Origin: Halomarina pelagica
GTDB taxonomy: Archaea; Halobacteriota; Halobacteria; Halobacteriales; Haloarculaceae
Reading direction: 5' to 3'
DNA: 64,000 nt
Assembly: GCF_024228315.1 (NCBI RefSeq)
Contig: NZ_CP100455.1
Span: forward strand, 248,001 to 312,000
Shown: positions 12,338 to 44,655 of the stretch, piece by piece
How the letters are laid out: every line of letters starts with the position of its first letter
Position numbering within the stretch: position 1 is the first letter of the stretch
Notes under the pieces: generated by a model
The model's database searches: none
The model's input: the letters and a program-made list of their open reading frames with translations, nothing else
What the model was told of the DNA's origin: nothing
Made by a program: the position numbers and the translations under genes

Positions 12338-13738
12338 TCAGATCGGTCGGTCGAGGTGGGTGCCGTCGCCCGGTTCGCCGACGATCTCGCCGTCTTCGAA
12401 GGCGACCCGTCCGCGAACGATCGTGTGCGTCGGCCACCCCGTCATCTCTCTCCCCTCGTAGATCGAGTAATCGGCGGCACCCTGGAGAAGTTCCGGGGTG
12501 ACGGTCCTGGTGTCGTCGAGGTCGACGACGACGAGGTCGGCGTCGCTCCCCACGCGGATCGCTCCCTTCTTGGGGTAGAGGTTCCAGGCCTTCGCCGCGT
12601 TCGTACTCGTCACCTCGACCGCCCGCTCGAGCGACAGGCGGCCCGCGTTCACCCCCTCCGACAGGATCAACGGCAACATGGTCGAACTGGACGGGAAGCC
12701 GAGCGCGCTGTCGCGGATGCCGTCGCCGAGTTTGGTCTCGGTCAGGTTCGCGCAATGGTCGGTGCCGATACAGTCGATGGTGCCGTCGGCGAGTCGCTTC
12801 CACAGGGTCTCCTGGTCGTCTCCTCCGCGAACCGGTGGGTTGACCTTCATTCGCTCGTCGCACTCCTCGGTCGTCAGGGTGAGGTAGTGGGGGCAGGTTT
12901 CGCCCCAGAGACGGTAGCCGGCGGCTCTGAGGGCGGCGAGTTCGTCGGCGGTGCGTCCCGAGGAGATGTGGACGGCGTAGAAGTTCTCGTCGTAGTCGTG
13001 GCACTTCGCGAGCGCCGCGCCCGCGACCATGCTCTGGGTCTCCGCGTACCCGGGGAACTCCTCTACCATCACCTCGTATCCCTCGTCGGCGTCGACCTCG
13101 GCGTCGCCGGACTCGGAGGTGACGTAGACGTTCCCCCCCGCGAGCGCGTTCGTGATCTCGACGTTTTCGGAGTGATAGCCGAGCGTCGTCGGCACGTCCT
13201 GCGCGGCGAGCGTCCTTACGAAGGCGTCGCCGAAGTCGTCGAGCATGTCGCAGTCGACGCCGAACTTGTCGGCGGCGGCGTACTTGTAGTTCATGTACCA
13301 CTTGAACGAGGTGATGCCCAGTTCGTTCACGATGTAGGGGATCTCCTCGACGTGCTCGAACGAGAGCAGTCCGAGCGAGAAGAAGTAGTCGTGGTAGTAG
13401 TTCGCCTCGGCCTCGGCGAAGTACCCGTCCATGATGTCGGCGTAGGCCCCCGGCCGGCGGAAGTAGTTCCCGATGGTCGTCACGCCCCCGACGAGGTCCG
13501 AGCGGGATTCGCTCTCGGCGTCCGCTTCGAGACCGCGGTAGATGCCGTGGTGGGTGTGGGGGTCGATGGCTCCGGGGAGGACGTGGTTACCGGTGGCGTC
13601 GACGACGCGGTCGCCGGTCAGCGAGTTGGGGCGGGCGATCGCCGAGACGACGCCGTCGTCGGCGGCGACGTCCGCGCGGAGCGTACCCTGATCGGGCGTC
13701 ACCACCGTCCCGTTGCGCACCACGAGATCGTGACTCAT
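12338..13738 (-). CDS. Dihydropyrimidinase / cyclic-imidase-like amidohydrolase, cassette 1
   Basis: This 466-residue cytosolic zinc amidohydrolase hydrolyses cyclic amide rings in related enzymes (dihydropyrimidines, hydantoins, imides, allantoin). All expected metal ligands are present: H61 and H63 in IDPHTHHG, the carboxylated Lys K146 in TSFKWY, H189 in LGYHSENVE, H257 in AVHISSG and D327 in IGTDHCA. The C-terminal NLYPKKGAIRVGSDADLVVV is the family end of the barrel. Its start overlaps the stop of the upstream amidase gene (ATGA), so the two are translated together. It shares three blocks of identical DNA with the cassette 2 copy (17307-18671). The exact substrate is unknown. Confidence 0.88.
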   Translation of the reverse strand: MSHDLVVRNGTVVTPDQGTLRADVAADDGVVSAIARPNSLTGDRVVDATGNHVLPGAIDPHTHHGIYRGLEADAESESRSDLVGGVTTIGNYFRRPGAYADIMDGYFAEAEANYYHDYFFSLGLLSFEHVEEIPYIVNELGITSFKWYMNYKYAAADKFGVDCDMLDDFGDAFVRTLAAQDVPTTLGYHSENVEITNALAGGNVYVTSESGDAEVDADEGYEVMVEEFPGYAETQSMVAGAALAKCHDYDENFYAVHISSGRTADELAALRAAGYRLWGETCPHYLTLTTEECDERMKVNPPVRGGDDQETLWKRLADGTIDCIGTDHCANLTETKLGDGIRDSALGFPSSSTMLPLILSEGVNAGRLSLERAVEVTSTNAAKAWNLYPKKGAIRVGSDADLVVVDLDDTRTVTPELLQGAADYSIYEGREMTGWPTHTIVRGRVAFEDGEIVGEPGDGTHLDRPI

Positions 13739-14406
13739 TCGAGCGCCCCCATCTCGTCGAGGTAGGACTTCACCTCGTCGACCTCGAGTACCTCGGCGTA
13801 CTTCATCCAGAGGTCGAGCAGCCCGATCCGGTGCGACGCCTCGATGCGGTCGAAGACGCACTCCTGCGGGAGGACCACGTTGAACCCGTTCGACTGCGCG
13901 TCGACCGCGGTCGCGCGGACGCAGCCGGACGTCGAGTTGCCGACGATGACCACGGTGTCGACGTCCGAACGAATGAGCCGCGAGAGTAGGTCCGTCCCGT
14001 AGAACGCGCTCGCGTAGGACTTCTCGATCACCGCGTCGCCCTCCCGCGGCGCGATGGGTTCGACGATCTCGAGGTCCGGATGGTCGGGGTCGTCGTAGCT
14101 CGACGGGACGACCCGCGTGTAGGTGATCGGGATGTCGTTTCCGCGGGCGAACCCGAGGAACGGCTCCATGTGATCGATGGCCCGCCACGCGACCTCGCCC
14201 ATCGCCGTCCGGTACTCCTCGACGGCCTCGAGGATGGGAACGTCCTCCCCGACGATGAGCCGTTGCATGTCGATGACGAGCACCATCGGGTTCTCGCCGA
14301 GCCCACGCGATTCCCACGATGACGCCCCTTCCTTGTCGTAGCCGGCCTTCGTGATGACCTGCCTGTCCCGTTCGGTCAACAGGTCCTCCCAGATTCGCTC
14401 AGTCAT
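13735..14406 (-). CDS. Isochorismatase-family amidase (half-amidase / N-carbamoyl amidase-like), cassette 1
   Basis: This 223-residue cysteine hydrolase of the isochorismatase fold has the catalytic triad D46 (VLVIDMQR), K129 (VIEKSYASAFYG) and C162 (NSTSGCVRATAVDA). The YASAFYGTDL and STSGCVRAT patterns are those of N-carbamoylsarcosine amidase and maleamate amidohydrolase (NicF), enzymes that release ammonia from an open-chain amide or carbamoyl group. A roughly 40-residue N-terminal extension (MTERIWEDLLTERDRQVI) is shared with the cassette 3 copy. It would act after the ring opening by the overlapping amidohydrolase. A minus-strand TATA-like TTTTATACC lies about 40 bp before the start. 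Confidence 0.88.
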   Translation of the reverse strand: MTERIWEDLLTERDRQVITKAGYDKEGASSWESRGLGENPMVLVIDMQRLIVGEDVPILEAVEEYRTAMGEVAWRAIDHMEPFLGFARGNDIPITYTRVVPSSYDDPDHPDLEIVEPIAPREGDAVIEKSYASAFYGTDLLSRLIRSDVDTVVIVGNSTSGCVRATAVDAQSNGFNVVLPQECVFDRIEASHRIGLLDLWMKYAEVLEVDEVKSYLDEMGALE

Positions 14407-14463
14407 GGGTGATAATCACAATCGAGTTCGGACGGCAGGCGGTATAAAATTTCGTACCCGCTC

Positions 14464-14525
14464 GTCCCCGGGGACGGGAGGTGACGGGAGGTGATGGGAC
14501 GAGACGGGATGGGAGGGGACGAGAC
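14464..14525. repeat. Pentanucleotide repeat tract (GACGR/GAGGK) and 12-bp palindrome
   Basis: A perfect palindrome GTCCCCGGGGAC (14464-14475) runs into a tract of about eleven 5-bp units from 14473 to 14525: GACGG, GAGGT, GACGG, GAGGT, GATGG, GACGA, GACGG, GATGG, GAGGG, GACGA, GACG. It lies between the divergent starts of the amidase (14406, minus) and the flavoprotein (14595, plus). A tract of the same pentamer on the opposite strand lies at 35630-35680. Confidence 0.6.
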
Positions 14526-14562
14526 GCCGAACGCTCGGCCGGGTAGCGGGAGGTGTACGATA

Positions 14563-14570
14563 CGTTTACA
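14563..14570 (+). promoter_or_regulatory. TATA-like box of the flavoprotein gene
   Basis: CGTTTACA is centred about 28 bp before the ATG at 14595. This is the spacing of a haloarchaeal TATA box to a leaderless transcript, and it supports 14595 over the upstream in-frame ATG at 14553. Confidence 0.55.
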
Positions 14571-14594
14571 ATCCCCGAACGCGGCGGGAGATAC

Positions 14595-16028
14595 ATGAGC
14601 GAGGCCGAACAGCCGACTATCGACGACGACAGGGAGGAGGTCGTCCCCGCCTCGGCGGTCGAGTGGGACGTGGAGACGGACGTGCTCGTCGCGGGCGCGG
14701 GGGGCACGGGGCTCGTCGCGGCGCTCGCGGCCTGCGAGGACCCCGACCTCACGGTGACCGTACTGGAGAAGGCCCCCGAGCCCGGCGGGAACACCGCGCT
14801 CTCGACGGGGATGGTCCCCGCGGCCGGGACGCGACTCCAGCGGGAGAAGGGGATCGAGGAGACGCCCGAGGACATGGCTCGCGACATCATGGAGAAGAAC
14901 GGCCACCAGGCCGACGAGGGGATGGTCCTCCACCTCGCCCGCGAGAGCGCGAACCTCGTTCACTGGCTCGTCGACTGGGGTGTCACCCTCCACCTCGTGG
15001 ACGACTTCAAGTACCCGAAACACTCGGAGTTCCGGATGCACGCTCCCGAGGGGAACAACGGCGCGAACCTCGTCGCGGAACTCGTCGACCTCCTGCGGGC
15101 TCGCCCCAACGTGGAACTCCTCACGAACGCCCCCGTCACCAGGCTCGTCGCGGAGGACGGCGTCGTCGTCGGTGTCGTCGCGGGCGACCGCCGCGAGGAG
15201 GTCATTCGCGCGAGGAAGGTCGTCCTCGCGACCGACGGGTTCGGCGGCAACCGACGGATGATCCGCGAGTACTGCGAGGAGGAGATCGACGACGCGCTCT
15301 ACTTCGGAGCGGACGGCAACACGGGCGACGGCATCCGGTTCGGAGCCGACCTCGGCGGCGAACTCGCCTACATGGACGCCTACCAGGGTCACGCGACGGT
15401 CGCGCGGGACACCGGGGCGCTCTCGACGTACGCCGTCGTGATGAACGGCGGGATCCTCGTCAACGAGGACGGCGAGCGGTTCGGCGACGAGTCGGCCGGC
15501 TACTCCGAGTTCGCCGTCGACGTGCTCCGCCAGCCGGGCGGCGTCGCCTACGAGATCTTCGACGAGCGCATCTTCGAGCGGCTCCGGGGCCAGTTCGACG
15601 ACTTCGACGAGGCGGTGAAGCTCGGCGCGTACGCCGAGGCCGACACCGTCGCGGACCTCTGTGCCCGCCTCGGTTGTGCCGCCGAGCCGACCGAGGCGTC
15701 GGTCGAGGCGTACAACGCGGCGGTCGAGGCCGGCGAACCGGACGAAGTCGGTCGCACCGACGGCGTCCACACGCTCTCCCCGCCGTTCTACGGAACCCGG
15801 GTGACGGGCGCGCTGTTCCACACCCAGGGCGGTCTGGTCGTCGACGAGCACGCCCGCGTCCTCCGCGAGGACGGGACGACGGTCGGAAACCTCTACGCCG
15901 GGGGTGGCGTCGCCTGCGGCGTCAGCGGTCACGGGGCCGGCGGGTACCTCTCGGGGAACGGCCTGACGGCCGCGCTCGGACTCGGTCGACTGGCGGGGAT
16001 CCACGCCCGCGAATCGCTCACGGAATAG
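14595..16028 (+). CDS. FAD-dependent oxidoreductase (fumarate reductase/succinate dehydrogenase flavoprotein family)
   Basis: This is a 477-residue soluble flavoprotein. The dinucleotide fold VLVAGAGGTGLVAALAA is at about residues 30-46, followed by VLEKAPEPGGNTALSTG, the flavin-contact segment of the FrdA/3-ketosteroid dehydrogenase/urocanate reductase group. The C-terminus has NLYAGGGVACGVSGHGAGGY, which completes the FAD site. It lacks a Tat signal, so it is cytosolic, and it has no partner iron-sulfur gene. In the island it could desaturate or reduce a ring or a C=C bond next to a carbonyl. It stands between cassettes 1 and 2 and faces the opposite way. Confidence 0.87.
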   Translation: MSEAEQPTIDDDREEVVPASAVEWDVETDVLVAGAGGTGLVAALAACEDPDLTVTVLEKAPEPGGNTALSTGMVPAAGTRLQREKGIEETPEDMARDIMEKNGHQADEGMVLHLARESANLVHWLVDWGVTLHLVDDFKYPKHSEFRMHAPEGNNGANLVAELVDLLRARPNVELLTNAPVTRLVAEDGVVVGVVAGDRREEVIRARKVVLATDGFGGNRRMIREYCEEEIDDALYFGADGNTGDGIRFGADLGGELAYMDAYQGHATVARDTGALSTYAVVMNGGILVNEDGERFGDESAGYSEFAVDVLRQPGGVAYEIFDERIFERLRGQFDDFDEAVKLGAYAEADTVADLCARLGCAAEPTEASVEAYNAAVEAGEPDEVGRTDGVHTLSPPFYGTRVTGALFHTQGGLVVDEHARVLREDGTTVGNLYAGGGVACGVSGHGAGGYLSGNGLTAALGLGRLAGIHARESLTE

Positions 16029-16049
16029 GTCGCACGGAATCGGTCGTGA

Positions 16050-17261
16050 TCACCGCACCTCGTTCGGCAGCCGCGTCCCGAGCAGCAGCGCGACGGTCGC
16101 GACCCCGGCCAGGAGGAGAAACGCCTCGTCGAACAGCCCCGCGTCCGCGAGCGATCCCACGAGCACCGGTCCCCCGGCCGCGAGCACGAGGTAGGCCGTT
16201 CGTATCAGGCCGAACCCGCTTCCCTGCACCGTGTCGGGCAGGACGGCGATGGCGTGGGCGTTGGCGACCGGCCAGAACCCGAGTTGAACGCCGAGCAGAA
16301 CGGTAACCCCCGCCAGCGCGACGGCGTCGTCGAACACCGGGAGCAGGGCGAGCGCCCCGATGGTGACGAGGGTGGCGGCGAGCAGCGTCGTCTTCGTTCC
16401 GAGGCGGTCGCTGGCCGCACCCGCGAGCGGCTGGACGACCACGCCCGTGGCGAAGAAGAGCCCGTAGAGCGCGGCCGCGGTGCCGTCGGGGAGCTGCTTG
16501 GCGGTGACGAGATACGTGGGATAGAAGCTCGTGAACCCCTGGTACACGAGCGACATCGTGAACATCATCCCGGCGACGAGCAGCGGGACGGGTCGGAGGA
16601 CGCCCGCCAGCGCCGTCCGAATCGAGCGTCCGTCGTCCGCCGAAACTACCGGATGAGTGCGCTGGGGGACCGTCAACCACAGGCCGACGGCGGTGGCCGC
16701 GAACGGGAGGGCGATGACGCCGAGTCCGCCGCGCCAGCCGAGAGCCGTGGCGGCCAGGAGGCCGGCGACGACCGGGAGCACCGCGGTCCCCACGTTGCCC
16801 GCCGCTTGACTGAGGCCGATGGCGGTCGCCGTGACGCGGGGGTACACGTCCGACATGATGGTCATCCGGGTCGTCGAGTAGAGGCCGGTACCGACGCCGA
16901 AGACGACCGTTCCGGCGACGAACGAGCCGACGTCGGGGGCCAGCGCGGCGATCGCGACCCCGACCGTCGAGACGACCGTGCTCGCCGCCAGCGTCGCCCG
17001 CTCGCCGACGCGATCGCCGAGCAGACCGCCGGGAAACTGCGAGACGGCGTAGGCGATCCACAGCGCGGTGAGCACCAGGCCGGCCCCCGTGAGATCGAGC
17101 CCGAGTCCGACCCGTATCCGGGGGAGCAACGCCGGGAAGACGAGCCGCGTCCCGATGGAGAGCAACCACCCGAGGGTGACGGCGAGAAACAGCCACCCGC
17201 GGCCCTCGCCGCGTAGCTGGCTCACGACCTCCCGAACGGAGCCGTGAACGTCGTCTACCAC
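16050..17261 (-). CDS. Major facilitator superfamily transporter
   Basis: This 403-residue membrane protein has about twelve hydrophobic helices. The loop between helices 2 and 3 reads QFPGGLLGDRVGERA, the MFS signature region (GxLxDRxGxR), and a second copy after the middle reads AGAASDRLGTKT. Residues PYP-like VYPRVTATAIGLSQAAGNVG fit the helix 4-5 region. It lies 45 bp after the cassette 2 amidohydrolase on the same strand, so it is probably the last gene of that operon and imports the cassette substrate or exports a product. Confidence 0.88.
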   Translation of the reverse strand: MVDDVHGSVREVVSQLRGEGRGWLFLAVTLGWLLSIGTRLVFPALLPRIRVGLGLDLTGAGLVLTALWIAYAVSQFPGGLLGDRVGERATLAASTVVSTVGVAIAALAPDVGSFVAGTVVFGVGTGLYSTTRMTIMSDVYPRVTATAIGLSQAAGNVGTAVLPVVAGLLAATALGWRGGLGVIALPFAATAVGLWLTVPQRTHPVVSADDGRSIRTALAGVLRPVPLLVAGMMFTMSLVYQGFTSFYPTYLVTAKQLPDGTAAALYGLFFATGVVVQPLAGAASDRLGTKTTLLAATLVTIGALALLPVFDDAVALAGVTVLLGVQLGFWPVANAHAIAVLPDTVQGSGFGLIRTAYLVLAAGGPVLVGSLADAGLFDEAFLLLAGVATVALLLGTRLPNEVR

Positions 17262-17306
17262 GGGGTCCCCTCACCCCCGACGGTCGGCGTGACGATTCGG
17301 ACCACG

Positions 17307-18671
17307 TCAGACGGGTCGGTCGACGTGGGTGCCGTCGCCCGGTTCGCCGACGACCTCGCCGTCTTCGAAGGCGACCCGCCCGCGAACGACCGTGTGCGTC
17401 GGCCACCCCGTCACCTCCATCCCCTCGTAGATCGAGTAGTCCGCACCGCTCTGCAGGAGGTCGGGGGTGACGGTCCTGGTGTCGTCGAGGTCGACGACGA
17501 CGAGGTCGGCGTCGCTCCCCACGCGGATCGCTCCCTTCTTGGGGTAGAGGTTCCAGGCCTTCGCCGCGTTCGTACTCGTCACCTCGACCGCTCGCTCCAG
17601 CGATAGTCGCCCCGCGTTCACCCCCTCCGACAGCACCAGCGGTAACATCGTCTGCGTGCCCGAGAACGCGAGCTTCGTCTCCCAGATGTCGTCGCCCAGT
17701 TTCTCGTCGAGCGTGTTACAGACGTGATCGGTGCCGACGCAGTCGATGGTGCCGTCGGCGAGCCGCGCCCACAGCGTTTCGCGATCCTCCGCCCCGCGCA
17801 TCGGGGGCGTCACCTTCATCCGGGCGTCACACTCGTCGGCCGTGTAGACGAGGTAGTGGGGGCAGGTTTCGCCCCAGAGACGGTAGCCGGCGGCTCTGAG
17901 GGCGGCGAGTTCGTCGGCGGTGCGTCCCGAGGAGATGTGGACGGCGTAGAAGTTCTCGTCGTAGTCGTGGCACTTCGCGAGCGCTGCACCCGCGACCATG
18001 CTCTGGGTCTCCGCGTACCCGGGGTACCGTTCGCGCAGGGCGTGGTAGTCGGCGTCCGGGTCGCCGGGATCCAGCAACGACCGCGTGATCTCGGCGTTCT
18101 CCGCGTGGTAGCCGAGCGTCGTCGGCACGTCCTGCGCGGCGAGCGCCTGAATCATCCCGTCGCCGACGTCGTCCAGCAGGTAGTCGTCGAGGCCGAACTT
18201 CTCCCGCGTCATGAACTTGTAGAGGGCGTACCACTTGAACGAGGTGATGCCCAGTTCGTTCACGATGTAGGGGATCTCCTCGACGTGGTCGTGCGAGAGG
18301 ATACCGAGCGTGTAGAAGTAGTCGTGGTAACTGTTCGCCTCGCTCCGCTCGACGTAGTCGGCCATGATCTCGGGGTAGGACCCCGGCCGGCGGAAGATGT
18401 TCCCGACGGTCGTCACGCCCCCGACGAGGTCTCCGCGGGTCTCCGTCTCGTGGTCGAGCGCGTAGTCCCGGTACAGGCCGTAGTGAACGTGCGGGTCGAT
18501 GGCTCCGGGGAGGACGTGGTTGCCGGTGGCGTCGACGACGTGCTCGCCGGTCAGCGAGTTGGGGCGGGCGATCGCCGAGACGACGCCGTCGTCGGCGGCG
18601 ACGTCCGCGCGGAGCGTACCCTGATCGGGCGTCACCACCGTCCCGTTGCACACCACCAGGTCGTGGCTCAC
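17307..18671 (-). CDS. Dihydropyrimidinase / cyclic-imidase-like amidohydrolase, cassette 2
   Basis: This 454-residue paralogue of the cassette 1 enzyme keeps all zinc ligands: H61 and H63 (IDPHVHYG), K146 (TSFKWY), H189 (LGYHAENAE), H245 (AVHISSG) and D315 (VGTDHVC). It starts at a GTG overlapping the amidase stop (GTGA). Blocks at 17464-17591, 17850-17984 and 18544-18649 are identical base for base to 12495-12622, 12881-13015 and 13611-13716. Substrate-facing segments such as residues 195-215 and 315-325 differ strongly. The pattern suggests duplication followed by diversification of specificity, with gene conversion keeping the scaffold alike. Confidence 0.88.
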   Translation of the reverse strand: MSHDLVVCNGTVVTPDQGTLRADVAADDGVVSAIARPNSLTGEHVVDATGNHVLPGAIDPHVHYGLYRDYALDHETETRGDLVGGVTTVGNIFRRPGSYPEIMADYVERSEANSYHDYFYTLGILSHDHVEEIPYIVNELGITSFKWYALYKFMTREKFGLDDYLLDDVGDGMIQALAAQDVPTTLGYHAENAEITRSLLDPGDPDADYHALRERYPGYAETQSMVAGAALAKCHDYDENFYAVHISSGRTADELAALRAAGYRLWGETCPHYLVYTADECDARMKVTPPMRGAEDRETLWARLADGTIDCVGTDHVCNTLDEKLGDDIWETKLAFSGTQTMLPLVLSEGVNAGRLSLERAVEVTSTNAAKAWNLYPKKGAIRVGSDADLVVVDLDDTRTVTPDLLQSGADYSIYEGMEVTGWPTHTVVRGRVAFEDGEVVGEPGDGTHVDRPV

Positions 18672-21556: not shown

Positions 21557-21931
21557 ATGTCACCCGTACACACCCCGAGGGAGGTCGCGGAGGAGTTCTT
21601 CGCCCGCATGGAGGACGACCGCCGCGAGACGGTCGGTGAACTGTTCGCCGCCGACGCCGTGATCACGGTCCCCGGCGCGCGTTTCGACGGGCCGGACGCG
21701 GCCGACGCGCTGCTCGAGCACCTCGCCCCCCGGTACGACTGGGCGGCCAAGCGGTTCGACCGCTGGATCGAGACCGACACCGAGGTCGTGAGCATCGGTA
21801 CGCTCTACGGCGTCGACGGCGACGGCGAGGAGTTCTCCGGCGTCCGCTACGTCGACGTCTACGAGGTCGAGGACGGTCGAATCCGGCGCGTCGACATCTG
21901 GAACGACCTGGCCGTCGACGGGGTCGTATGA
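21557..21931 (+). CDS. SnoaL/NTF2-like small protein
   Basis: This 124-residue protein has the NTF2-like/SnoaL fold pattern: VAEEFFARMEDDRRETVGEL helices, LFAADAVITVPG, a central FDGPDAADALLEHL and the final YVDVYEVEDGRIRRVDIWND strands. The family includes polyketide cyclases, ketosteroid isomerases and many small-molecule-binding proteins. It is the first gene of the plus-strand operon and ends with an ATGA overlap with the luciferase-like monooxygenase, so it may assist that enzyme. No catalytic Asp/His pair can be assigned with confidence. Confidence 0.8.
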   Translation: MSPVHTPREVAEEFFARMEDDRRETVGELFAADAVITVPGARFDGPDAADALLEHLAPRYDWAAKRFDRWIETDTEVVSIGTLYGVDGDGEEFSGVRYVDVYEVEDGRIRRVDIWNDLAVDGVV

Positions 21932-22911
21932 CCCGAACCGGCGTCCTGTTCTCGCTCACCGACGACCTGGATCTCGTGCGGCGGGCGGAGGCGTACGGCT
22001 ACGAGAGCGTCTGGGCCGCGGAGGGCCAGGGGAAGACGGCGTTCGGGAAGCTCGAACGCTGGGCGACCGCGACCGATCGGATCGGGCTCGCGACGGGTAT
22101 CGTGAACGTGTTTTCGCGGACGCCGGCCGGGCTGGCGCAGGCGGCGGCGACGCTGGACGCGCACTCCGAGGGCCGGGCGATTCTGGGCCTCGGGGTCGCC
22201 CACCCGGGAGTCGTGGAAGACTTCCACGGCGTCCCCTTCGACCGGCCGCTCGACCGCCTCCACGAGTACGTCGAACTCGTTCGGTGGTACCTCCGCGGTG
22301 ACGGTGAGCCGTTCGAGGGTGTGTTTTTTTCGCCGTCGCGGCCGCGGTTCTGGGGGGCGTTCGAGCCGGTGCGTCGGGAGATCCCGATCTACAACGCGGC
22401 GCTCGGCCCCGCGAACGTCCGCCTCACCGGACAGGTCGCCGACGGCTGGCTGCCGAACCTCTACCCGACGTCTCAGTTCGAGGAGGCGATGGGATGGCTA
22501 GAGACCGGCGCTGAACGCGCCGGGCGGGATCCGGACGACATCGACGTCGCGATGTACGTACTCACCGTCCCCGACGACGACCGCGAGGCGGCGCGTCGTC
22601 GGGCCGCCGAACACGTCGCCTACTACCTGCGCGACCTCCCCGGCTACTACGATCGGCCGGCCGAGGCGGCCGGGTTCGCCGACGAGGTGGCGAGCGTGAA
22701 GGCCGCCGGATCGACGGCCGAGGGGGCGCGGCGGATCAGCGACGCCCTCGTCGACGCCCTGGCCGTCGCCGGGACGCCCGACGAGTGTCGCGACCGGATC
22801 GACCGCCTCCGCGTGGCGGGCGTCGACCTCCCCATCGTCCGGGCCCCGTCGGGCGCGAGTCGCGCCCTCGAGGAACGGGTGCTGGAGACGTTCGCACCGG
22901 AGGGCGCATGA
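21928..22911 (+). CDS. LLM-class flavin/F420-dependent oxidoreductase
   Basis: This 327-residue TIM-barrel enzyme is of the bacterial-luciferase-like superfamily. Segments are SLTDDLDLVRRAEAYGYESV, TDRIGLATGIVNVFSRTP, RAILGLGVAHPGVVEDFHG, IYNAALGPANVRLTGQVADG and a C-terminal AGTPDECRDRI. The pattern GLAT-GIVNVFSRTP and PANVRLTG fits archaeal and actinobacterial F420-dependent members such as methylenetetrahydromethanopterin reductase relatives. Haloarchaea make F420. It overlaps both neighbours by ATGA. An internally deleted copy lies at 33615-34025. It may oxidise or reduce an island intermediate. Confidence 0.87.
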   Translation: MTRTGVLFSLTDDLDLVRRAEAYGYESVWAAEGQGKTAFGKLERWATATDRIGLATGIVNVFSRTPAGLAQAAATLDAHSEGRAILGLGVAHPGVVEDFHGVPFDRPLDRLHEYVELVRWYLRGDGEPFEGVFFSPSRPRFWGAFEPVRREIPIYNAALGPANVRLTGQVADGWLPNLYPTSQFEEAMGWLETGAERAGRDPDDIDVAMYVLTVPDDDREAARRRAAEHVAYYLRDLPGYYDRPAEAAGFADEVASVKAAGSTAEGARRISDALVDALAVAGTPDECRDRIDRLRVAGVDLPIVRAPSGASRALEERVLETFAPEGA

Positions 22912-24649: not shown

Positions 24650-26044
24650 ATGCCAACGAGTACCGTAGATCTCGTCGTGCGTAACGCTCGGGTGGTAACG
24701 CCGTCCGGGACGATCCGTGGCGGGGTCGCCTGCGACGATGGGGTCGTCGTCGGAGTCGGGGGCGATGCGACGCTGCCGGCCGGCGAGGTGGAGGTCGACG
24801 CGGAGGGGAACGTCTGTATCCCGGGGCTGGTGGATCCGCACGTCCACCTCGGTCGTCGCGACGCGGGCTACCCCGATCAGCTCGAGGTGGACTTCGAAAC
24901 GGAGACGCGGGGGGCCGTTCACGGCGGCGTCACCTGTCTGCTCAACTTCGTCGAGCAGGAAGGTCACTACGTTCCCGACCTCGACTTCTTCCGCGACGTC
25001 GGCGAAGCGAACTCCTACGTCGACTTCGGCTACCACATGGTGATGAGCCACGAACACCACATCGACGAGGTCCCCGCCCTCGCCGCGGCCGGCGTGAAGT
25101 CGTTCAAGATGTTCTTCAACATGTACAAATACACGGACATAGACATCGAGCCCTGCGAGGCCGACCGGGTCGAGCGCGTCCTCTCTCAGGTGGCCGAGAT
25201 CCCGGGGGCGGTCGGGATGTTCCACGCGGAGAACGCCGAACTCCAGAGGGAGTGTGAGCGGGCGGCCCGCGACTCCGGCCGTCACGATCTCCGGGCGTGG
25301 GCCGACGCCTCTCCCCCCGAGGCGGAGGCGATGCAGATCGATCAGATCGGTCACCTCACCCGGTTCACCGACGCCGACTCCTACGTCGTCCACGTCTCCA
25401 GCGCGCAGGGCGTCGAGGCGGTCGAGCGCTGGCAGCGGCGGGGCGTCCAGGTCACCGGCGAGACGCTCGTGACGTTCCTCGCCAACACCGTCGAGGACGA
25501 CCTCGGCGTCTGGGGGAAGGTGTCGCCCCCGCTACGAACCCCACGGCATCAGGAGGCGCTGTGGGCCGCGCTCCGCCGCGGCGTCATCGACAACGTCGGT
25601 ACCGACCACATCGCGACGAGCAAGGAGCAGCACGAACTGGGACGGGGACAGCACGGGCCGCACCTCTGGGAGGCCCCGCCGGGCATCCAGCCGGGGATGG
25701 AGTTCCTCCTGCCGATGATGCTCACCGAGGGATACAACAGGAACCGGATCACGATGGAACGGCTGGTCGAGGTCTGCGCCACGAACAACGCGAAGCGATT
25801 CGGGCTCTACCCGCGGAAGGGGGTGATCGCCCCCGGGTCGGACGCCGACCTCGTGGTCGTCGACACGGACGCGACCGCGACTATCGACGACGACTTCTTC
25901 CACACCCGCGAGCCGCGGTGGTCGTCGGTCCACGGTCGCGACGTGCGGGGCCTGCCGACGCACACGATCGTCGGCGGCGAACTCGCCGTCGCGGACGGCG
26001 AACTGCTGGTCGAGAAGGGCGGACGCGAGTTCCTCGCCCGCTGA
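24650..26044 (+). CDS. Dihydropyrimidinase / cyclic-imidase-like amidohydrolase, cassette 3
   Basis: This 464-residue third member of the amidohydrolase set has ligands H64 and H66 (VDPHVHLG), K153 (KSFKMFFNMYK), H192 (GMFHAENAE), H248 (VVHVSSA) and D319 (VGTDHIA). It is more diverged from copies 1 and 2 than they are from each other and shares no long identical DNA with them. A TATA-like TTTTGAA at about 24621-24627 is 27 bp before the ATG, giving the cassette a possible internal promoter. It is followed by its amidase after 64 bp, so the gene order is the reverse of cassettes 1 and 2. Confidence 0.88.
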   Translation: MPTSTVDLVVRNARVVTPSGTIRGGVACDDGVVVGVGGDATLPAGEVEVDAEGNVCIPGLVDPHVHLGRRDAGYPDQLEVDFETETRGAVHGGVTCLLNFVEQEGHYVPDLDFFRDVGEANSYVDFGYHMVMSHEHHIDEVPALAAAGVKSFKMFFNMYKYTDIDIEPCEADRVERVLSQVAEIPGAVGMFHAENAELQRECERAARDSGRHDLRAWADASPPEAEAMQIDQIGHLTRFTDADSYVVHVSSAQGVEAVERWQRRGVQVTGETLVTFLANTVEDDLGVWGKVSPPLRTPRHQEALWAALRRGVIDNVGTDHIATSKEQHELGRGQHGPHLWEAPPGIQPGMEFLLPMMLTEGYNRNRITMERLVEVCATNNAKRFGLYPRKGVIAPGSDADLVVVDTDATATIDDDFFHTREPRWSSVHGRDVRGLPTHTIVGGELAVADGELLVEKGGREFLAR

Positions 26045-26108
26045 CCCGCTCGCCCCCGTCGGACCGACCGCAACGGTAACGTACGACCCACGAGAGGTGT
26101 ACGCACGT

Positions 26109-26777
26109 ATGACCGAGAGACCCTGGGAGACCCTGCTGTCCGACCGCGACCGCGAGGTCATCGAGGCGGCCGGCTACGACACTCGCGGTGCGTCGAACTG
26201 GGACACGCGCGGCGTCGGAACGTCCCCGATGGTGCTCGTCATCGACATGCAACGCGTCACCGTCGGCGCGGACGTTCCGATCGTCGAGGCCGTCGAGGAG
26301 TCGCGCATCGCGATGGGCGAGGTCGCCCATCGGGCGCTCGAACACATCGTCCTGTTCGTCGAGTTCGCCCGCGAGCGGGGGATACCGGTGACGCACGCCC
26401 GCGTCGTCCCGCCGGCGTACGACCCCGACGATCCCGAGGTCCAGTTCGTCGACGCGCTGACCCCGCGAGAGGGCGAGCAGGTGATCGAGAAGCGCTACGC
26501 GAGCGCGTTCTTCGGCACCGACCTCGTCGCCCGACTCGTCCGGGCGGGCGTCGACACCCTGGTCGTCGTCGGCAACACGACCAGCGGCTGTCTCCGCGCG
26601 ACCGTCGTCGACGCCCAGCAGTTCGGGTTCAAGGTGTTGCTCCCCCAGGAGTGCGTCTTCGACCGGATCGACCTCTCACACCGCGTCAACCTCCTGGACA
26701 TGTGGATGAAGTACGCCGACGTCCGACCGACCGAGGAGATACGCGAGCTGCTGGCCGCCCTCGACGGGGACCGATGA
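26109..26777 (+). CDS. Isochorismatase-family amidase, cassette 3
   Basis: This is a 222-residue amidase with triad D46 (VLVIDMQR), K128 (VIEKRYASAFFG) and C161 (NTTSGCLRATVVDA). The N-terminal extension MTERPWETLLSDRDREVIEA closely follows that of cassette 1, and the C-terminus (LLPQECVFDRIDLSHRVNLL) is nearly the same too. I chose 26109 over 26097 because the family extension begins with MTER. It overlaps the next gene by ATGA, linking amide hydrolysis to the CoA ligase. Confidence 0.88.
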   Translation: MTERPWETLLSDRDREVIEAAGYDTRGASNWDTRGVGTSPMVLVIDMQRVTVGADVPIVEAVEESRIAMGEVAHRALEHIVLFVEFARERGIPVTHARVVPPAYDPDDPEVQFVDALTPREGEQVIEKRYASAFFGTDLVARLVRAGVDTLVVVGNTTSGCLRATVVDAQQFGFKVLLPQECVFDRIDLSHRVNLLDMWMKYADVRPTEEIRELLAALDGDR

Positions 26778-31361: not shown

Positions 31362-31852
31362 TGGAGCGGACCGGTCGCGTCCACCGGCTTCCGGACGACG
31401 TGGACACCGACCAGATCATCCCCGGAGAGTACCTCACGACCGTCCCCGACGAGGAACTCGGCCAGTACGCGCTCCGGGGTTACGATCCCACCTTCGCCGA
31501 CCGTGTCGAGCGGGGTGACGTCATCGTCGCGGGCGAGAACTTCGGGCTCGGCTCCTCGCGCGAGTCCGCGCCGGTCGCGCTCCGAAACGCCGGCGTCGGA
31601 GCGGTCGTCGCCGAGTCGTTCGCGCGTATCTTCTACCGGAACGCCATCAACGTGGGGCTGCCCATCGCGACCGTGCCGGGCATCGCGGATCGCGTCTCGG
31701 ACGGTGACGTCCTCCGCGTCGACGTCGCCACGGGCGACGTCGAGGACGTGACGACCGGTGAGACGTTCACGTTCGACCCGCTCCCTCCCGACCTGCTCGA
31801 GATCCTCGAGGCGGGCGGGCTGGTGGCGCTCAGACGGCGGAGGAGGGGCTAA
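31361..31852 (+). CDS. Aconitase/3-isopropylmalate dehydratase family small subunit A
   Basis: This is a 163-residue swivel-domain subunit. Visible signatures are DDVDTDQIIPGEYL (about residues 12-25), GENFGLGSSRESAP and ARIFYRNAINVGLPI. The loop after IIP that sets substrate choice reads GEYLTTVPDEEL, unlike that of the second small subunit at 49192 (SRFIVSSDPDDL), so the two hydro-lyases probably use different substrates. It is the last gene of the plus-strand operon begun at 21557. Confidence 0.9.
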   Translation: MERTGRVHRLPDDVDTDQIIPGEYLTTVPDEELGQYALRGYDPTFADRVERGDVIVAGENFGLGSSRESAPVALRNAGVGAVVAESFARIFYRNAINVGLPIATVPGIADRVSDGDVLRVDVATGDVEDVTTGETFTFDPLPPDLLEILEAGGLVALRRRRRG

Positions 31853-32841: not shown

Positions 32842-33618
32842 CTAGCTCGTGCTGTGGACGCCGCCGTCGACGACGAGCGACAGTCCGGTGACGTAGTCGG
32901 CCCGGTCGCTCGCGAGGTAGACGGCGGCCTCGGCGACGTCCGCGGGGTGACCGAACCGTCGAAGCGGGATGCGCTCCTCGAACGCGTCGCCGCGTGCGGT
33001 CCCGAGGACCTTCGAATCGGATCGGGTCATCTCCGACTCGACGACGCCGGGGTGGACGGCGTTCGCGCGGACGCCGTACGGCCCGAGCGCGTCGGCCATC
33101 GCGTACGTCATCAGTCTGACGGCTCCCTTCGAGGCGCAGTAGGCGACGTAGTCGCCGACGCCGTACAGCCCGGCCGTGCTGGAGAGGTTGACGATGCTCC
33201 CGCTCCCCCGTTCGCGCATTCGGCGGGCGGCGGCCTGCGCGCCGAAGAACACCCCCTTGGCGTTCACGTCCATCGCGCGGTCGAACTCGGCTTCGGTGGT
33301 GTCGAGGAAGTCGGCCAGCACGAAGACGCCCGCGTTGTTCACCATCACGTCCACGCCGCCGAACGCGTCGGCGGCGCCGACCGCCGCCTCCAGCGCCCCC
33401 GGGTCGGTGACGTCGCACTCGACGAAGGTGGCGTCGGCGTCGGTCTCGTCGACGAGTCGGTCGTCGGTCGGCGTCCCCCCCTCGCGGGGATCGCGCTGGC
33501 GGTCCGCGACGACGATCCCGCTCGCGCCCTCGCGGGCGAACGCGAGGCAGATCTCGCGGCCGATCCCGCTCGCGCCGCCCGTGACGACCGCGACGCGGCC
33601 GTCGAGGTCCCCCGTCAT
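32842..33618 (-). CDS. Short-chain dehydrogenase/reductase (SDR) 1
   Basis: This is a 258-residue classical SDR. The cofactor site VVTGGASGIGREI is at about residues 11-23, NNAG at about residue 95, Ser in LSSTAGL and the YCASKGA catalytic Tyr-x3-Lys follow. The ADRQ end of the second strand suggests NAD(H). It overlaps the truncated LLM gene (ATGA) upstream and lies 62 bp before the lyase gene, so the three probably form a minus-strand unit. The substrate is a hydroxyacid or alcohol intermediate of unknown identity. Confidence 0.88.
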   Translation of the reverse strand: MTGDLDGRVAVVTGGASGIGREICLAFAREGASGIVVADRQRDPREGGTPTDDRLVDETDADATFVECDVTDPGALEAAVGAADAFGGVDVMVNNAGVFVLADFLDTTEAEFDRAMDVNAKGVFFGAQAAARRMRERGSGSIVNLSSTAGLYGVGDYVAYCASKGAVRLMTYAMADALGPYGVRANAVHPGVVESEMTRSDSKVLGTARGDAFEERIPLRRFGHPADVAEAAVYLASDRADYVTGLSLVVDGGVHSTS

Positions 33619-34025
33619 ACCGCCTCCGGGGCGAGCGCGGCCATCGTGCGCCGTCGCTCCGTCCCGTCGGCGGTCATCGGAGCGCGAACGATGGGGAGAC
33701 CGAGCCCCGCATCCCGGCGTTCGTCGATCCCGGCGCGTACCTCGGCAGCGGTACCGACGACGCCGACGGACTCGACGAACCTGTCCGAGAGCGCGTCGGC
33801 GGTAGCCTGCGCCAGCCTCGCCGGCGTCCGCGAAAACACGTTCACGATACCCGTCGCGAGTTCGATGCGGTCGGTCGCCGCCGCCCGACGTTCGAGCTTC
33901 CCGAACGCCGTCTTCCCCCGGCGCTCGCCGGTCCAGGCGCTCTCGTAGCCGTACGCCTCCGCCCGCCGCACGAGATCCAGGTCGTCCAGTAGCCCGACGG
34001 GGAGGGCGATACGTTCTCTGTTCAC
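33615..34025 (-). pseudogene. Internally deleted copy of the LLM oxidoreductase gene
   Basis: This frame of 136 residues from a GTG joins the N-terminal ~65 residues of the LLM oxidoreductase at 21928 (DDLDLVRRAEAYGYES, TDRI-LATGIVNVFSRTP) directly to its C-terminal ~55 residues (GTAAEVRAGID, LPIVRAP). About 200 residues of the barrel are missing in frame. DNA similarity to 21960-22150 is very high, so the duplication is fairly recent. It keeps an open frame and a 4-bp overlap with the SDR gene, and might still be translated, but it cannot form the TIM barrel. It is most likely a decayed duplicate. Confidence 0.75.
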
Positions 34026-34100
34026 AGGACTCACGACCGCTCGTTTCTCCGCCGTGGGCAAAACCGTTCCCCCGGGACGGTACGGTTGAGCGAAACAAGG

Positions 34101-34106
34101 TTTATA
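34101..34106 (+). promoter_or_regulatory. TATA box of the ABC ATPase operon
   Basis: TTTATA (34101-34106) lies 27-32 bp before the ATG at 34133, the spacing of a leaderless haloarchaeal gene. This argues against the in-frame ATG at 34106, which overlaps the TATA box itself. Confidence 0.65.
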
Positions 34107-34132
34107 TGTCGGAGGGGACAGTATCACGTCAG

Positions 34133-34882
34133 ATGGTTTCACTCCTCGAAATCGATGGGCTCACCAAGACGTTCGGTGCGCTCGTCGCGAACGACGGCAT
34201 CACGCTCTCGGTGGCCGACGGTGAGGTTCGAGGGATTATCGGTCCCAACGGGAGCGGGAAGTCCACCTTCTTCAACACCCTGACCGGGTTCTATCGGTCC
34301 GACGGGGGGACCGTCGTCTTCGACGGGACCGACGTCAGTGGGTGGAAGCCCCACCGAATCGCCCAGCGAGGGCTCGCACGGACGTTCCAGATCGTCTCCC
34401 CGTTCGAGGACCTCACCGTCCGCGAGAACCTCCTCGCCGTCCACACGGCCGGCCTGCGCGTCTCCGAGGAGAAACGACGGCGCGCCGACGAGATCCTCGA
34501 GTTCCTCGAGATCGAGCACATCAGCGACAACGAGGCGTCGGAGATGAGCGGCGGTCAGCAGAAGTTGCTCGAACTGGCGCGGGTGCTGATGCTCGACCCG
34601 AAGTGCATCCTCCTCGACGAGCCGACCGCCGGGGTCAACCCCGCGCTCCAGGACCGCATCCTCGACCGGCTGGAGGTGATGAACGAACGCGGCACCACGT
34701 TCGTCATCGTCGAGCACGACATGTCGCTCATCCAGCGATTCGCCGACTCGGTCACCGTCTTCGATCAGGGACAGGTCATCGCCGAAGGTGACTTCGAGGA
34801 GGTGACCGCGGACGCCCGCGTCCGCGAGGCATATCTGGGAACCGACGCCGCCGGCGAGACCGCAGAGGACCTCCTCTCATGA
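34133..34882 (+). CDS. Branched-chain-amino-acid-type ABC transporter ATP-binding protein (LivG-like)
   Basis: This 249-residue ABC ATPase has Walker A GPNGSGKST, the LivG-type Q-loop region ARTFQIVSPFEDLTVREN, signature EMSGGQQK, Walker B CILLDEPTAG and the switch His in VIVEHDM. It is the first of two ATPase genes (ATGA overlap with the next). Together with LivF-, LivK-, LivH- and LivM-like genes at 34879-40560 it forms a complete HAAT-type importer. In this setting the cargo may be an amide, imide or carboxylate instead of leucine. Confidence 0.92.
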   Translation: MVSLLEIDGLTKTFGALVANDGITLSVADGEVRGIIGPNGSGKSTFFNTLTGFYRSDGGTVVFDGTDVSGWKPHRIAQRGLARTFQIVSPFEDLTVRENLLAVHTAGLRVSEEKRRRADEILEFLEIEHISDNEASEMSGGQQKLLELARVLMLDPKCILLDEPTAGVNPALQDRILDRLEVMNERGTTFVIVEHDMSLIQRFADSVTVFDQGQVIAEGDFEEVTADARVREAYLGTDAAGETAEDLLS

Positions 34883-35628
34883 CCGCGAGCGAATCCGAGC
34901 GGGTCGATCGTGACGGGCGGGATCGACTCGTCGCCGAGGACGTCGTCACCGGCTACGGGAGTTCGGAGATCCTCCACGGCGTCTCCGTGCGGAGCCACGA
35001 CGGGGTCACCTGCATCTTCGGGCCGAACGGCTCCGGGAAGTCGACGCTCATCAAGACGCTGAACGGTATCGTCCCCGTCTGGTCGGGCTCCGTCCGGTAC
35101 GGTTCGACCGACATCACCGACTACGACGCGAACGAGGTGGTCTCGAGCGGCATCATCACGCTCCCGCAGGACGGCGGGCTGTTCCCGAACCTCACCGTCC
35201 GCGAGAACCTCCGGATGGGCGGCTACACCGTCGCCGACAAGTCGGTCGTCGAGGAACGGATCCGGGCGGCGCTGACCGCGTTCCCCGCGCTCGAGGACAA
35301 GCTCTCGAACAGGGCGAAGTCGCTCTCCGGGGGCCAGCAGATGATGCTCAGTTTCGGCCGAGCGATGGTCTCCGACTCCGACGTCTACCTGCTCGACGAA
35401 CCGAGCGCGGGACTCGCGCCGTCGCTCGTCGACGACGTCATCGACCAGGTCAGGACGCTCGTCGACCACGGGGCACAGATACTCCTCGTCGAGCAGAACG
35501 TCCGCGCGGCGCTCCGCATCGCCGACCACGTCTACATCCTCGCGCAGGGGGAGACGCAGTTCGACGGCCCGCCGGAGGACCTGAGCGAGGAGGACGAACT
35601 CATCGAACTCTACCTCGGCCTCGGGTAG
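34879..35628 (+). CDS. Branched-chain-amino-acid-type ABC transporter ATP-binding protein (LivF-like)
   Basis: This 249-residue ABC ATPase has Walker A GPNGSGKST, the Q-loop LPQDGGLFPNLTVRENLRMG that marks the LivF group, signature LSGGQQM, Walker B VYLLDEPSAG and H-loop-like LLVEQNVRAAL. Glu-Gln-Asn after the switch replaces the His, as is usual in LivF (VEQN). It overlaps the LivG-like gene. An oppositely oriented MmgE/PrpD gene separates it from the rest of the transporter. Confidence 0.92.
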   Translation: MTASESERVDRDGRDRLVAEDVVTGYGSSEILHGVSVRSHDGVTCIFGPNGSGKSTLIKTLNGIVPVWSGSVRYGSTDITDYDANEVVSSGIITLPQDGGLFPNLTVRENLRMGGYTVADKSVVEERIRAALTAFPALEDKLSNRAKSLSGGQQMMLSFGRAMVSDSDVYLLDEPSAGLAPSLVDDVIDQVRTLVDHGAQILLVEQNVRAALRIADHVYILAQGETQFDGPPEDLSEEDELIELYLGLG

Positions 35629-35629
35629 G

Positions 35630-35680
35630 TCGTCTCGTCTCGTTTCATCTCGTCGCGTCTCGTCGCGTCGCGTCGCGCTC
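35630..35680. repeat. Pentanucleotide tract TCGTC/GCGTC
   Basis: About ten 5-bp units (TCGTC, TCGTC, TCGTT, TCATC, TCGTC, GCGTC, TCGTC, GCGTC, GCGTC, GCGCT) fill the gap between the stop codons of the LivF-like gene and the converging MmgE/PrpD gene. Read on the other strand the unit is GACGA, the same pentamer as in the tract at 14473-14525. Confidence 0.6.
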
Positions 35681-35684
35681 CGCT

Positions 35685-37019
35685 TCAGCGCCGGGCGGCG
35701 GCGCAGAGCCGTTTCGGGTTCGCGTCCCCGCCCCGTGCCAACTCCCACAGCGTCGACGCCGCGCTCGTACCGAGCAGCGGGGCGACGAGTTCGTCGAACT
35801 TCTCGCGGAGTTCCCCCTCCGACCACGGCCGCTCGGCCCCGCCGCGGGCGTGTTCGACCTCCTCGACGAGTTCCCGGCCGTCGTCGAGTCGAATCGTGAC
35901 CCGGCTGCCGCGAGCGTCGGGGAGTCGCGCGGCGACGTCGTCGGCGACGACCACCGCCACCCGCTCGGCGAGCGCGAACGCCTCCGCGGAGAGCGACTCG
36001 TCGGCGAACGCCCCCTTCCCGGACGAACCGCGGAGCAGGCGCGTCGCGACCGCGTACGGGACGGAGAACTTCGCCTGTAGCGCGTTCTTCGGGCGGGTTG
36101 GCGTCAATCCCGCCGCGGTAGGGTACGTCTCTACGAGCACCGACTCGACGGCGTCGACCTCGAACGGTTCGGCCGCCTGCAGGGCGTCGAGCGCGTCGAG
36201 CGTCGGGTGCGTGTACCGGCAGGCCGCGTGTCGCTTGAAGTACCCACCGAGAACGTCCCACCGCTCGCCCAGATCGGCCGAGAGTTCGGTCGCGTCGAAC
36301 CTCCCACCGGCGGGTACGGCGAGGTGGTTGGCAATCCCCTCCTCGACGCCGGTGAAGCCGGCGATCGCGAGGTCCACGGCGACGAGGCCGTCGAGGTTCG
36401 CCTTCCCGGCGTAGCTGTTTCGGACGGTCGCCCCCTCCGTGGCGGCGGTCATCAGCGTGTGCTGGGCGCTGTTGCCCGCGATACGCATCGCCTGGAGGGT
36501 CGTGTCGGGGTCACATCCGCGCACTCGAGCGACGCCCGCGGCCGCCCCGACCGCGCCCCAGACGCCGTGGGGATGGTACCCCTCTGCCAGCGGGTAACAG
36601 GCCCGAGCGACGCGAGTGCCGACCTCGTAACCGGCGACGGTCGCCGCCAGGAACTCCTCGCTCTCCACGGTTCGCGTCTCCGCGACCGCGAGCACCGCGG
36701 GCAGGACGTGGATGGCCGGGTGGCCCGCCGCGTACTTGTGCCCCTCGTCGAGTTCGAGCACGGTTCCGCCGGTACCGTTGACGAGCGCGGCGAAGCGGGG
36801 TTCGAGTCGATGAGACGTCCCGAGGACCGTCGCCGGGCCGGGCGTCTCCTCGGCGAACCAGTCGGCCAGAGCGGCGGTGTCGGGATCGGTCGAACCGCCG
36901 ATCATCGCGCCGAGGGTGTCGGCCAGGACGAGACCGACGTGGTCGAGCACGTCGGCCGGGACGTCCCGGGCGTCGAGTTCGGACGCGAACGTGGCGGCCG
37001 CGCGTTCGTAATCAGTCAT
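35685..37019 (-). CDS. MmgE/PrpD family protein 1
   Basis: This 444-residue protein matches the family that includes 2-methylcitrate dehydratase PrpD, MmgE and cis-aconitate decarboxylase. It has an all-alpha part with GATVRNSYAGKANLDGLVAV, ELDEGHKYAAGHPAIHVLPA at about residues 88-107 and HAACRYTHPTLDALDAL near residue 265, followed by the smaller alpha/beta domain (AKFSVPYAVA). Members dehydrate or decarboxylate branched tricarboxylates and related acids, and some are catalytically uncharacterised. It is inserted in reverse between the two halves of the ABC importer operon. A second member lies at 41345. Confidence 0.88.
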   Translation of the reverse strand: MTDYERAAATFASELDARDVPADVLDHVGLVLADTLGAMIGGSTDPDTAALADWFAEETPGPATVLGTSHRLEPRFAALVNGTGGTVLELDEGHKYAAGHPAIHVLPAVLAVAETRTVESEEFLAATVAGYEVGTRVARACYPLAEGYHPHGVWGAVGAAAGVARVRGCDPDTTLQAMRIAGNSAQHTLMTAATEGATVRNSYAGKANLDGLVAVDLAIAGFTGVEEGIANHLAVPAGGRFDATELSADLGERWDVLGGYFKRHAACRYTHPTLDALDALQAAEPFEVDAVESVLVETYPTAAGLTPTRPKNALQAKFSVPYAVATRLLRGSSGKGAFADESLSAEAFALAERVAVVVADDVAARLPDARGSRVTIRLDDGRELVEEVEHARGGAERPWSEGELREKFDELVAPLLGTSAASTLWELARGGDANPKRLCAAARR

Positions 37020-37191
37020 CTTCCTCGCCGTGGGTGAGAGAAGTAGTCGACATGTTCCGACGGAGATGGACCGGGGGTGGGCTTAGGTGTTGTCCGTGGT
37101 ACCGTCCGCCAGTCACCGAGGGAGGTGTCCGACGTCGATCGGGCCGCCGAATCTCCCCCGTTCGGCGGCTTCTGTCATCGATCGTGTGCGA

Positions 37192-37203
37192 ACTTATATA
37201 TAT
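37192..37203 (+). promoter_or_regulatory. TATA box of the substrate-binding protein gene
   Basis: CTTATATATATG (37192-37203) is the strongest TATA-like sequence in the window. The ATG at 37234 is 31-42 bp downstream, leaving a leader of only a few bases. The gene probably has high expression, as expected for a binding protein. Confidence 0.65.
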
Positions 37204-37233
37204 GAATAGATTCAACACTCTACGACGGTTTGC

Positions 37234-38520: not shown

Positions 38521-38537
38521 CCGCGACCGAGAACAAC

Positions 38538-38544
38538 CTTTAAG
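38538..38544 (+). promoter_or_regulatory. TATA-like box before the permease gene
   Basis: CTTTAAG (38538-38544) lies 24-30 bp before the ATG at 38568, so the permease genes may be transcribed separately from the binding-protein gene. Confidence 0.5.
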
Positions 38545-38567
38545 AACCCATTCACCTACACCGTCAC

Positions 38568-39500: not shown

Positions 39501-39501
39501 G

Positions 39502-40560: not shown

Positions 40561-40561
40561 G

Positions 40562-41329: not shown

Positions 41330-41344
41330 GACGGCGGGGCGCTA

Positions 41345-42706: not shown

Positions 42707-42727
42707 GCGTGGGAGTTCCTGCCAGGA

Positions 42728-42736
42728 GGTATAACC
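42728..42736 (-). promoter_or_regulatory. TATA box of MmgE/PrpD gene 2
   Basis: GGTTATACC on the minus strand, centred 26 bp before the ATG at 42706, predicts a leaderless transcript. Confidence 0.55.
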
Positions 42737-42804
42737 TTTCGCCCGATCGTCACCGGGGGCGTGGAGAGCCGTCCGTGCGCGGAGGCGGTACGCCCCCGGA
42801 GGCC

Positions 42805-43212: not shown

Positions 43213-43309
43213 GTCACCGAACAGTGGGGGCGACAAGTAATATCCGTGACTGTTGCCGCGCGGTCGTTCGGGGACGGGACCATACCGTTATGTCACCGAC
43301 GGCCGACCC

Positions 43310-43405
43310 ATGGGTATGCCCGTCGACAACGACCCGTGGAACCGGGACGGCGACGCCGTCTCCCTGCACGATTCGACCGAACCCCCCGCCCCTGGAGGGG
43401 TGTGA
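43310..43405 (+). CDS. Possible short leader ORF before CoA-transferase B
   Basis: This is an open frame of 31 codons (29 if it starts at the ATG at 43316) with an acidic, haloarchaea-like composition (MPVDNDPWNRDGDAVSLHD). It stops one base before the ATG of the CoA-transferase at 43407. Its last codons contain the GGAGG Shine-Dalgarno sequence (43394-43398) of that gene. It may be a leader peptide that couples translation, a tiny protein, or chance. Confidence 0.3.
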   Translation: MGMPVDNDPWNRDGDAVSLHDSTEPPAPGGV

Positions 43406-43406
43406 G

Positions 43407-44633: not shown

Positions 44634-44655
44634 CCCCCGCCACCGCCCATCGCAT

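Follow-up and report, generated by a model that had tools for sequence, protein, structure and literature searches.

How can two neighbouring enzymes be identical base for base in some parts of their genes and strongly diverged, even in length, in the parts between? This question is raised by two amidohydrolase genes, a1 and a2, which lie in a 64,000-nucleotide stretch of the Halomarina pelagica genome (contig NZ_CP100455.1, positions 248,001 to 312,000; hereafter the window, in which all positions are counted). The two genes lie some 5 kb from each other, both on the minus strand, and each is accompanied by an upstream partner gene encoding an isochorismatase-fold hydrolase (i1 and i2, respectively). 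Interlocus gene conversion between a1 and a2 is strongly supported. The full explanation, in which old, linked paralogues undergo recurrent short conversions that are retained in the scaffold while the active-site segments are spared, is in our judgement very probably correct.

Genomes, gene segments and tests

The window's genome (G000) was compared with genomes of two further genera of the same family (G021 and G015, whose a1/a2 loci are designated L029 and L030), with G434 and G396, and with three genomes of the same genus (G004, G005, and G006). Both genes were divided by residue into a scaffold (approximately 1-60, 226-286, and 353-466) and two variable segments (v1, 61-225; v2, 287-352), and the scaffold was further divided into N (N-terminal), M (middle), C1 (353-412), and C2 (413-466). 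Conversion tracts were tested by a GENECONV-style permutation procedure on all sites (5000 permutations) and silent sites by a sum-of-squares statistic. Sliding-window identity, synonymous divergence (dS) per segment, segment trees evaluated with the approximately unbiased (AU) test, and counts of fourfold-degenerate sites and residue differences were also used. Selection between orthologues was gauged by comparing nonsynonymous (pN) with synonymous (pS) differences, and nearness to the active site was judged from secondary structure and the positions of the metal ligands.

Identical blocks within a1 and a2

The sequence-only reading described three pairs of blocks (128, 135, and 106 nt; Table 1) separated by diverged regions, and it explained this mosaic by gene conversion on a shared scaffold combined with diversifying selection on specificity loops. 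The block pairs do contain no differences and are bounded by mismatches at every border, and the divergence between them is indeed strong, including a length change of 12 residues at residues 201-220 or so. Each of the three blocks is significant in the permutation test (p=0.0002). Further identical runs comprise the 60-nt run given in Table 1 and shorter ones of 37 nt (13176-13212/18109-18145), 36 nt (13020-13055/17989-18024), and 29 nt (12356-12384/17325-17353). When 187 pairs of this gene were compared between genomes at 78-88% DNA identity, no pair had an identical run of more than 62 nt (median of the longest runs, 35), compared with 135 nt for a1/a2. Silent divergence is uneven along the gene: in G000, dS is 0.07-0.14 in the blocks vs. 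0.34-0.68 between them, and silent sites alone, taken over the whole gene, yield p=0.017.

Comparison with orthologues

The window, G021, and G015 share the gene order IclR-a1-i1-FAD-(MFS)-a2-i2-HpcH-CoAT3-SnoaL-LLM-AtuA-DUF4387-a3-i3-aconitase; thus, the positional orthologues of each copy can be identified independently of any tree. With this assignment, the scaffold is homogenised within genomes. Sliding identity between a1 and a2 is mostly 93-100% in the G000 scaffold and 86-100% in most windows of G021 (approx. 80% near the C-terminus), whereas scaffolds of orthologues from different genomes are mostly 72-90% identical. The relationship is reversed in residues 61-225 and 287-352, where orthologues are 73-93% identical and paralogues mostly 66-82%, falling to 39% at the 196-225 length change. 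Likewise, residue differences between paralogues are concentrated in the variable segments (scaffold/variable, 16/102, 28/113, and 50/117; Fisher's test against orthologues, 4e-8, 3e-6, and 0.002), and scaffold fourfold sites are identical in 119 of 136 cases in G000 and 110 of 129 in G021 vs. 70 of 120 in orthologues (p=1.7e-7 and 2.3e-6).

Homogenisation recurs in separate lineages and is confined to the same segments: it is strong in G000 and G021, weak in G015, and limited to one tract (C1) in G434. The G021 pair carries a 177-nt identical block covering residues 353-412, and its C1 dS is 0.03 vs. 0.38-0.50 between the blocks; since the tract ends of G021 are unlike those of G000, these were separate conversion events. 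The tracts of the two genomes overlap more than expected from random placement (p=0.01-0.03). In G434, whose two copies are inverted relative to each other at a distance of 13.8 kb, homogenisation is apparent at residues 353-412 only (dS 0.21 vs. 0.8-1.5 elsewhere), and in G396, where the copies lie on separate contigs, no long run was found (longest, 20 nt). As a separate observation, the G434 locus (L071) is a possible case of conversion between inverted copies.

Segment trees

Trees of the two kinds of segment conflict. In the scaffold tree, a1 and a2 of G000 group together (support 100/100), and a clade of the three a1 genes is rejected (AU p 9e-55); in the variable-segment tree, the three a2 genes group together (100/100), and the pairing of a1 with a2 of G000 is rejected (AU p 5e-64). 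Among the trees of single segments, that of C1 unites a1 and a2 of G021 (97/95). Moreover, v1 places the a2 genes with single-copy a2-type genes of other haloarchaea (93/97), whereas the scaffold rejects this grouping (4.5e-57), so the scaffold of a2 was derived from the a1 side. The a2 gene thus combines an a2-type active site with an a1-type scaffold; the conversions, or at least the older among them, went from the a1 side to a2.

With uneven silent divergence, orthologues in which the blocks are not conserved (mostly 10-25% different there), and conflicting segment trees, the proposal of gene conversion on the scaffold is borne out. The pair displays the features of concerted evolution, i.e., paralogues more alike than orthologues, orthology established by synteny, homogenised silent sites, discrete conflicting tracts, and recurrence. 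In the proposed mechanism, a1 and a2 are old paralogues predating the split of the genera concerned, between which homologous recombination repeatedly copies stretches of tens to about 180 nt. Such copies are retained in three places, namely the N-terminal beta-sandwich half (residues 1-60 or so, up to HxH), residues 226-286 with alpha5, beta6, and beta7, and residues 353-466, which form the C-terminal half. Residues 61-225 and 287-352, with most active-site loops, keep separate histories. The agent would presumably be the ordinary homologous recombination/gene conversion machinery of the cell, possibly aided by polyploidy.

Alternative explanations

Because the blocks are conserved parts of the fold, they might be identical simply because neither copy can change there. 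However, orthologues from different genera differ in roughly 10-28% of the bases of these same blocks (pS 0.31-0.59), so conservation across species by constraint is not what is observed. Orthologues also differ equally in the scaffold and the variable segments (42/235 vs. 42/231 residues for a1; 38 vs. 38 for a2), and amino acid identity between a1-type and a2-type genes that occur as single copies reaches just 54-64% in N and M (residues 1-50 and 241-290). Scaffold constraint was rejected on these orthologue and single-copy comparisons and has a negligible chance of being correct. Independent recent duplications of one copy in each genome, followed by very fast divergence of the active-site segments, are just as improbable; they would yield paralogues more alike than orthologues in the blocks, but in their variable segments the three a2 genes fall into the single clade described above, three genera share one gene order around both copies, and the partner genes i1 and i2 are not homogenised in the manner of a1/a2 (just residues 46-90 or so are somewhat alike in G000, at 80-83%). 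This candidate was rejected on synteny and the variable-segment tree. It is also very doubtful that assembly or polishing copied similar short stretches from one gene to the other. The blocks, at 100-135 nt, are near short-read length and are known from assembled sequence, but the pattern recurs with other sequences and other tract ends in separate few-contig assemblies (G021, G015, and G434).

A more serious competitor, though still an unlikely one, is neutral escape, according to which segments that chanced to diverge, notably at the 201-220 length change, no longer recombine, and selection is not needed. Recombination requires stretches of identity. The 201-220 indel falls inside a variable segment, and the tracts sit where local identity is high today, both of which fit this explanation. 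However, in the unconverted state, as represented by the single-copy genes, identity is no higher in N and M than in v1 and v2 (48-71% at the amino acid level, the gapped 201-230 stretch aside), and the v1 silent sites of G000 have been homogenised with the residue differences among them preserved. The segments that escape are also the same in G000, G021, and G015, although all three inherited that state.

Several observations weigh against recurrent, selectively retained conversion. The homogenisation in G015 shows the same tendency but is weak and older (longest run, 36 nt; silent test, p=0.14), and the coincidence of tracts between G000 and G021 is just moderately significant. In scaffold trees, a1 with a2 of G021 is not the best grouping (AU 0.03-0.06), because G021 and G015 share history there, and C2 is ambiguous. 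Finally, the silent-site signal in v1 reaches significance in G000 only, and a mismatch barrier could hold variable segments that have already diverged in an unconverted state.

Why the active-site segments are spared

HxH, the metal lysine, H189, and D327 all lie in the spared segments. So do most of the loops at the barrel's active-site end; the sole such loop in a converted segment carries the VHxS motif after beta6, which is invariant in the family. In v1 of G000, 37 of 40 fourfold sites are identical, vs. 40 of 60 in orthologues (p=0.003), and 21 of 24 when the two longest runs are left out. Conversion therefore reaches v1 in patches while residue differences persist, a pattern, significant in this one genome, that speaks more for selection to preserve specificity than for a pure mismatch barrier. 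Homogenising the spared segments would presumably destroy the putatively different substrate specificities of the two enzymes, and of the reasons considered for the mosaic, selection against conversion of these segments seems the most probable.

The diversifying selection invoked by the sequence-only reading found no support in its stated form. Between orthologues, pN is 0.09-0.14 vs. pS of 0.30-0.46, so v1 and v2 are under purifying selection (pN/pS about 0.3), with residues changing no faster than in the scaffold. The difference between a1 and a2 in these segments is old and maintained, and stabilising selection that opposes their conversion fits it better than ongoing diversification. It is conceivable, although we would only tentatively suggest it, that the two genes form a standing scaffold exchange, in which the fold is kept common and repaired by conversion, selection shields the active sites, and two specificities outlast several genera. 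The shared scaffold may keep subunits compatible in mixed oligomers.

Organisation of the locus

The features of the locus are collected in Table 1. The MFS gene is present in the window and G015 but not in G021; hence, the spacing between a1 and a2 varies. The third amidohydrolase, a3, shows no conversion with a1/a2 (dS 0.74-0.78), and a scan of named genomes with a1/a2 peptide patterns returned distant, irrelevant matches only.

Table 1. Positions of genes, conversion tracts and segments in the window
Feature	Position	Strand	Remarks
a1, amidohydrolase copy 1, dihydropyrimidinase/hydantoinase type, 466 aa, ATG start	12338..13738	-	Pfam PF01979 on enclosing open reading frame
i1, isochorismatase-fold cysteine hydrolase, 223 aa	13735..14406	-	4-nt overlap with a1 start
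a2, amidohydrolase copy 2, 454 aa, GTG start	17307..18671	-	
i2, isochorismatase-fold hydrolase, a2 partner, 218 aa	18668..19324	-	Pfam PF00857
Tract N in a1, residues 8-43	13611..13716	-	Identical to 18544-18649
Tract N in a2	18544..18649	-	Identical to 13611-13716
Tract M in a1, residues 242-286	12881..13015	-	Identical to 17850-17984
Tract M in a2	17850..17984	-	Identical to 12881-13015
Tract C1 in a1, residues 373-415	12495..12622	-	Identical to 17464-17591
Tract C1 in a2	17464..17591	-	Identical to 12495-12622
60-nt identical run inside a1 variable part, residues 129-148, up to metal-lysine region	13295..13354	-	Identical to 18228-18287, p=0.0026
v1 of a1, residues 61-225 (HxH, metal lysine K146, H189, active-site loops)	13064..13558	-	Orthologous history kept
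v2 of a1, residues 287-352 (D327, beta7/beta8 loops)	12683..12880	-	Orthologous history kept
FAD-dependent oxidoreductase between both units	14553..16028	+	Position conserved in G021 and G015
MFS transporter between units	16050..17261	-	Present in G015, absent in G021
a3, third, distant amidohydrolase paralogue	24650..26044	+	36-38% aa identity to a1/a2 (tblastn)
i3, isochorismatase-fold hydrolase, a3 partner	26097..26777	+	

Both a1 and a2 encode cyclic amidohydrolases that belong with the dihydropyrimidinases and hydantoinases. The AlphaFold model of a1 (predicted local distance difference test score, pLDDT, 92.7) has dihydropyrimidinase 4tqt as its best PDB match, and H61, H63, K146, H189, H257, and D327, which we take to be the metal ligands, are invariant among 30 relatives. 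The enzymes share the fold, HxH, the lysine, the two further His and the Asp ligands, and the length of D-hydantoinases and dihydropyrimidinases (TIGR02033; PDB 4tqt, 3dc8, and 1gkp), but they are only about 30% identical to these solved relatives. Against NCBIfam TIGR02033, a1 scores 260 bits (E 3.7e-77) and a2 266 bits, both under the curated equivalog cut-off of 393 bits, so that this model leaves their substrate unassigned. The closest solved structures to i1 and i2 are N-carbamoylsarcosine amidohydrolases, and the obvious reading of each unit is a predicted two-step reaction in which one enzyme would open a ring and an amidase would then act on the product. Surrounding genes encode a CoA-transferase III, an HpcH/HpaI lyase, aconitase family proteins, an LLM flavin enzyme, an acyl-CoA dehydrogenase, MmgE/PrpD, and a branched-chain-type ABC transporter; the cluster looks like a putative pathway for catabolism of a cyclic nitrogen compound, with the carbon ending as coenzyme A (CoA) esters.

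A second catabolic cluster, of the type found in G004, G005, and G006, occupies 32842-49695 (CoA-transferase 96% and aconitase large subunit 94% identical to a Halomarina sp. PSR21 plasmid). In the window's genome, this cluster appears to have lost its own isochorismatase-amidohydrolase unit, which relatives carry there. At 33615-34142 (minus strand) lies a relic of a luciferase-like (LLM) flavin oxidoreductase gene, which retains the N- and C-terminal portions of the gene at 21928-22911 but lacks its central part; the two share identical blocks of 49, 41, and 30 nt in opposite orientation. The same-genus genomes G005 and G006 have an intact LLM gene between an SDR gene and an i1+a1 unit. Two other 30-nt identical blocks were noted, one in the aconitase small-subunit genes of both clusters (31394-31423 and 49234-49263) and one, in opposite orientation, in the isochorismatase genes i1 and i3 (14261-14290 and 26225-26254).

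Relation to known cases and significance

The closest precedent for a1/a2 is the domain-limited conversion of mtrA-1/mtrA-2 of methanogens, beside a second, different domain (Wang et al. 2015, PMC4632066). Both cases involve archaeal paralogues with conserved synteny and long-lasting, recurrent, partial conversion in which part of one copy is overwritten by that of the other. However, conversion in mtrA takes in a complete domain, and the part that differs is a separate, unrelated transmembrane domain, whereas in a1/a2 converted and unconverted segments alternate in one fold (beta-sandwich plus TIM barrel), with most of the active site in the spared parts. The peculiarity of a1/a2 is thus an alternation within a single enzyme domain that tracks the active site. 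Recurrent whole-gene concerted evolution has been documented for 26 prokaryotic genes, among which there is neither an amidohydrolase nor any gene from haloarchaea (Wang and Chen 2018, PMC6053082). As in a1/a2, same-species paralogues were closer than orthologues and were recognised through synteny and trees, but whole-gene trees were used, in which a segmental case such as a1/a2 would blur. Efficient gene conversion between chromosome copies of polyploid Haloferax volcanii (PMC11276520) demonstrates the capability of haloarchaea for this process; there, however, copies of the same locus are equalised over several kb, whereas a1 and a2 are two loci that exchange short tracts.

With the a1/a2 pair, an enzyme from haloarchaea joins the few prokaryotic protein genes in which conversion is recurrent, and the pair indicates that whole-gene trees of such partly converted pairs mislead. 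It also represents a natural experiment on the question of how duplicated enzymes can retain different functions despite recombination that overwrites them. The tract borders lie at the edge of the active site (60/61, before HxH, and 286/287), three genera have their spared segments in common, and single-copy genes serve as unconverted controls; the effects of selection and recombination are thus separable by chimeras.

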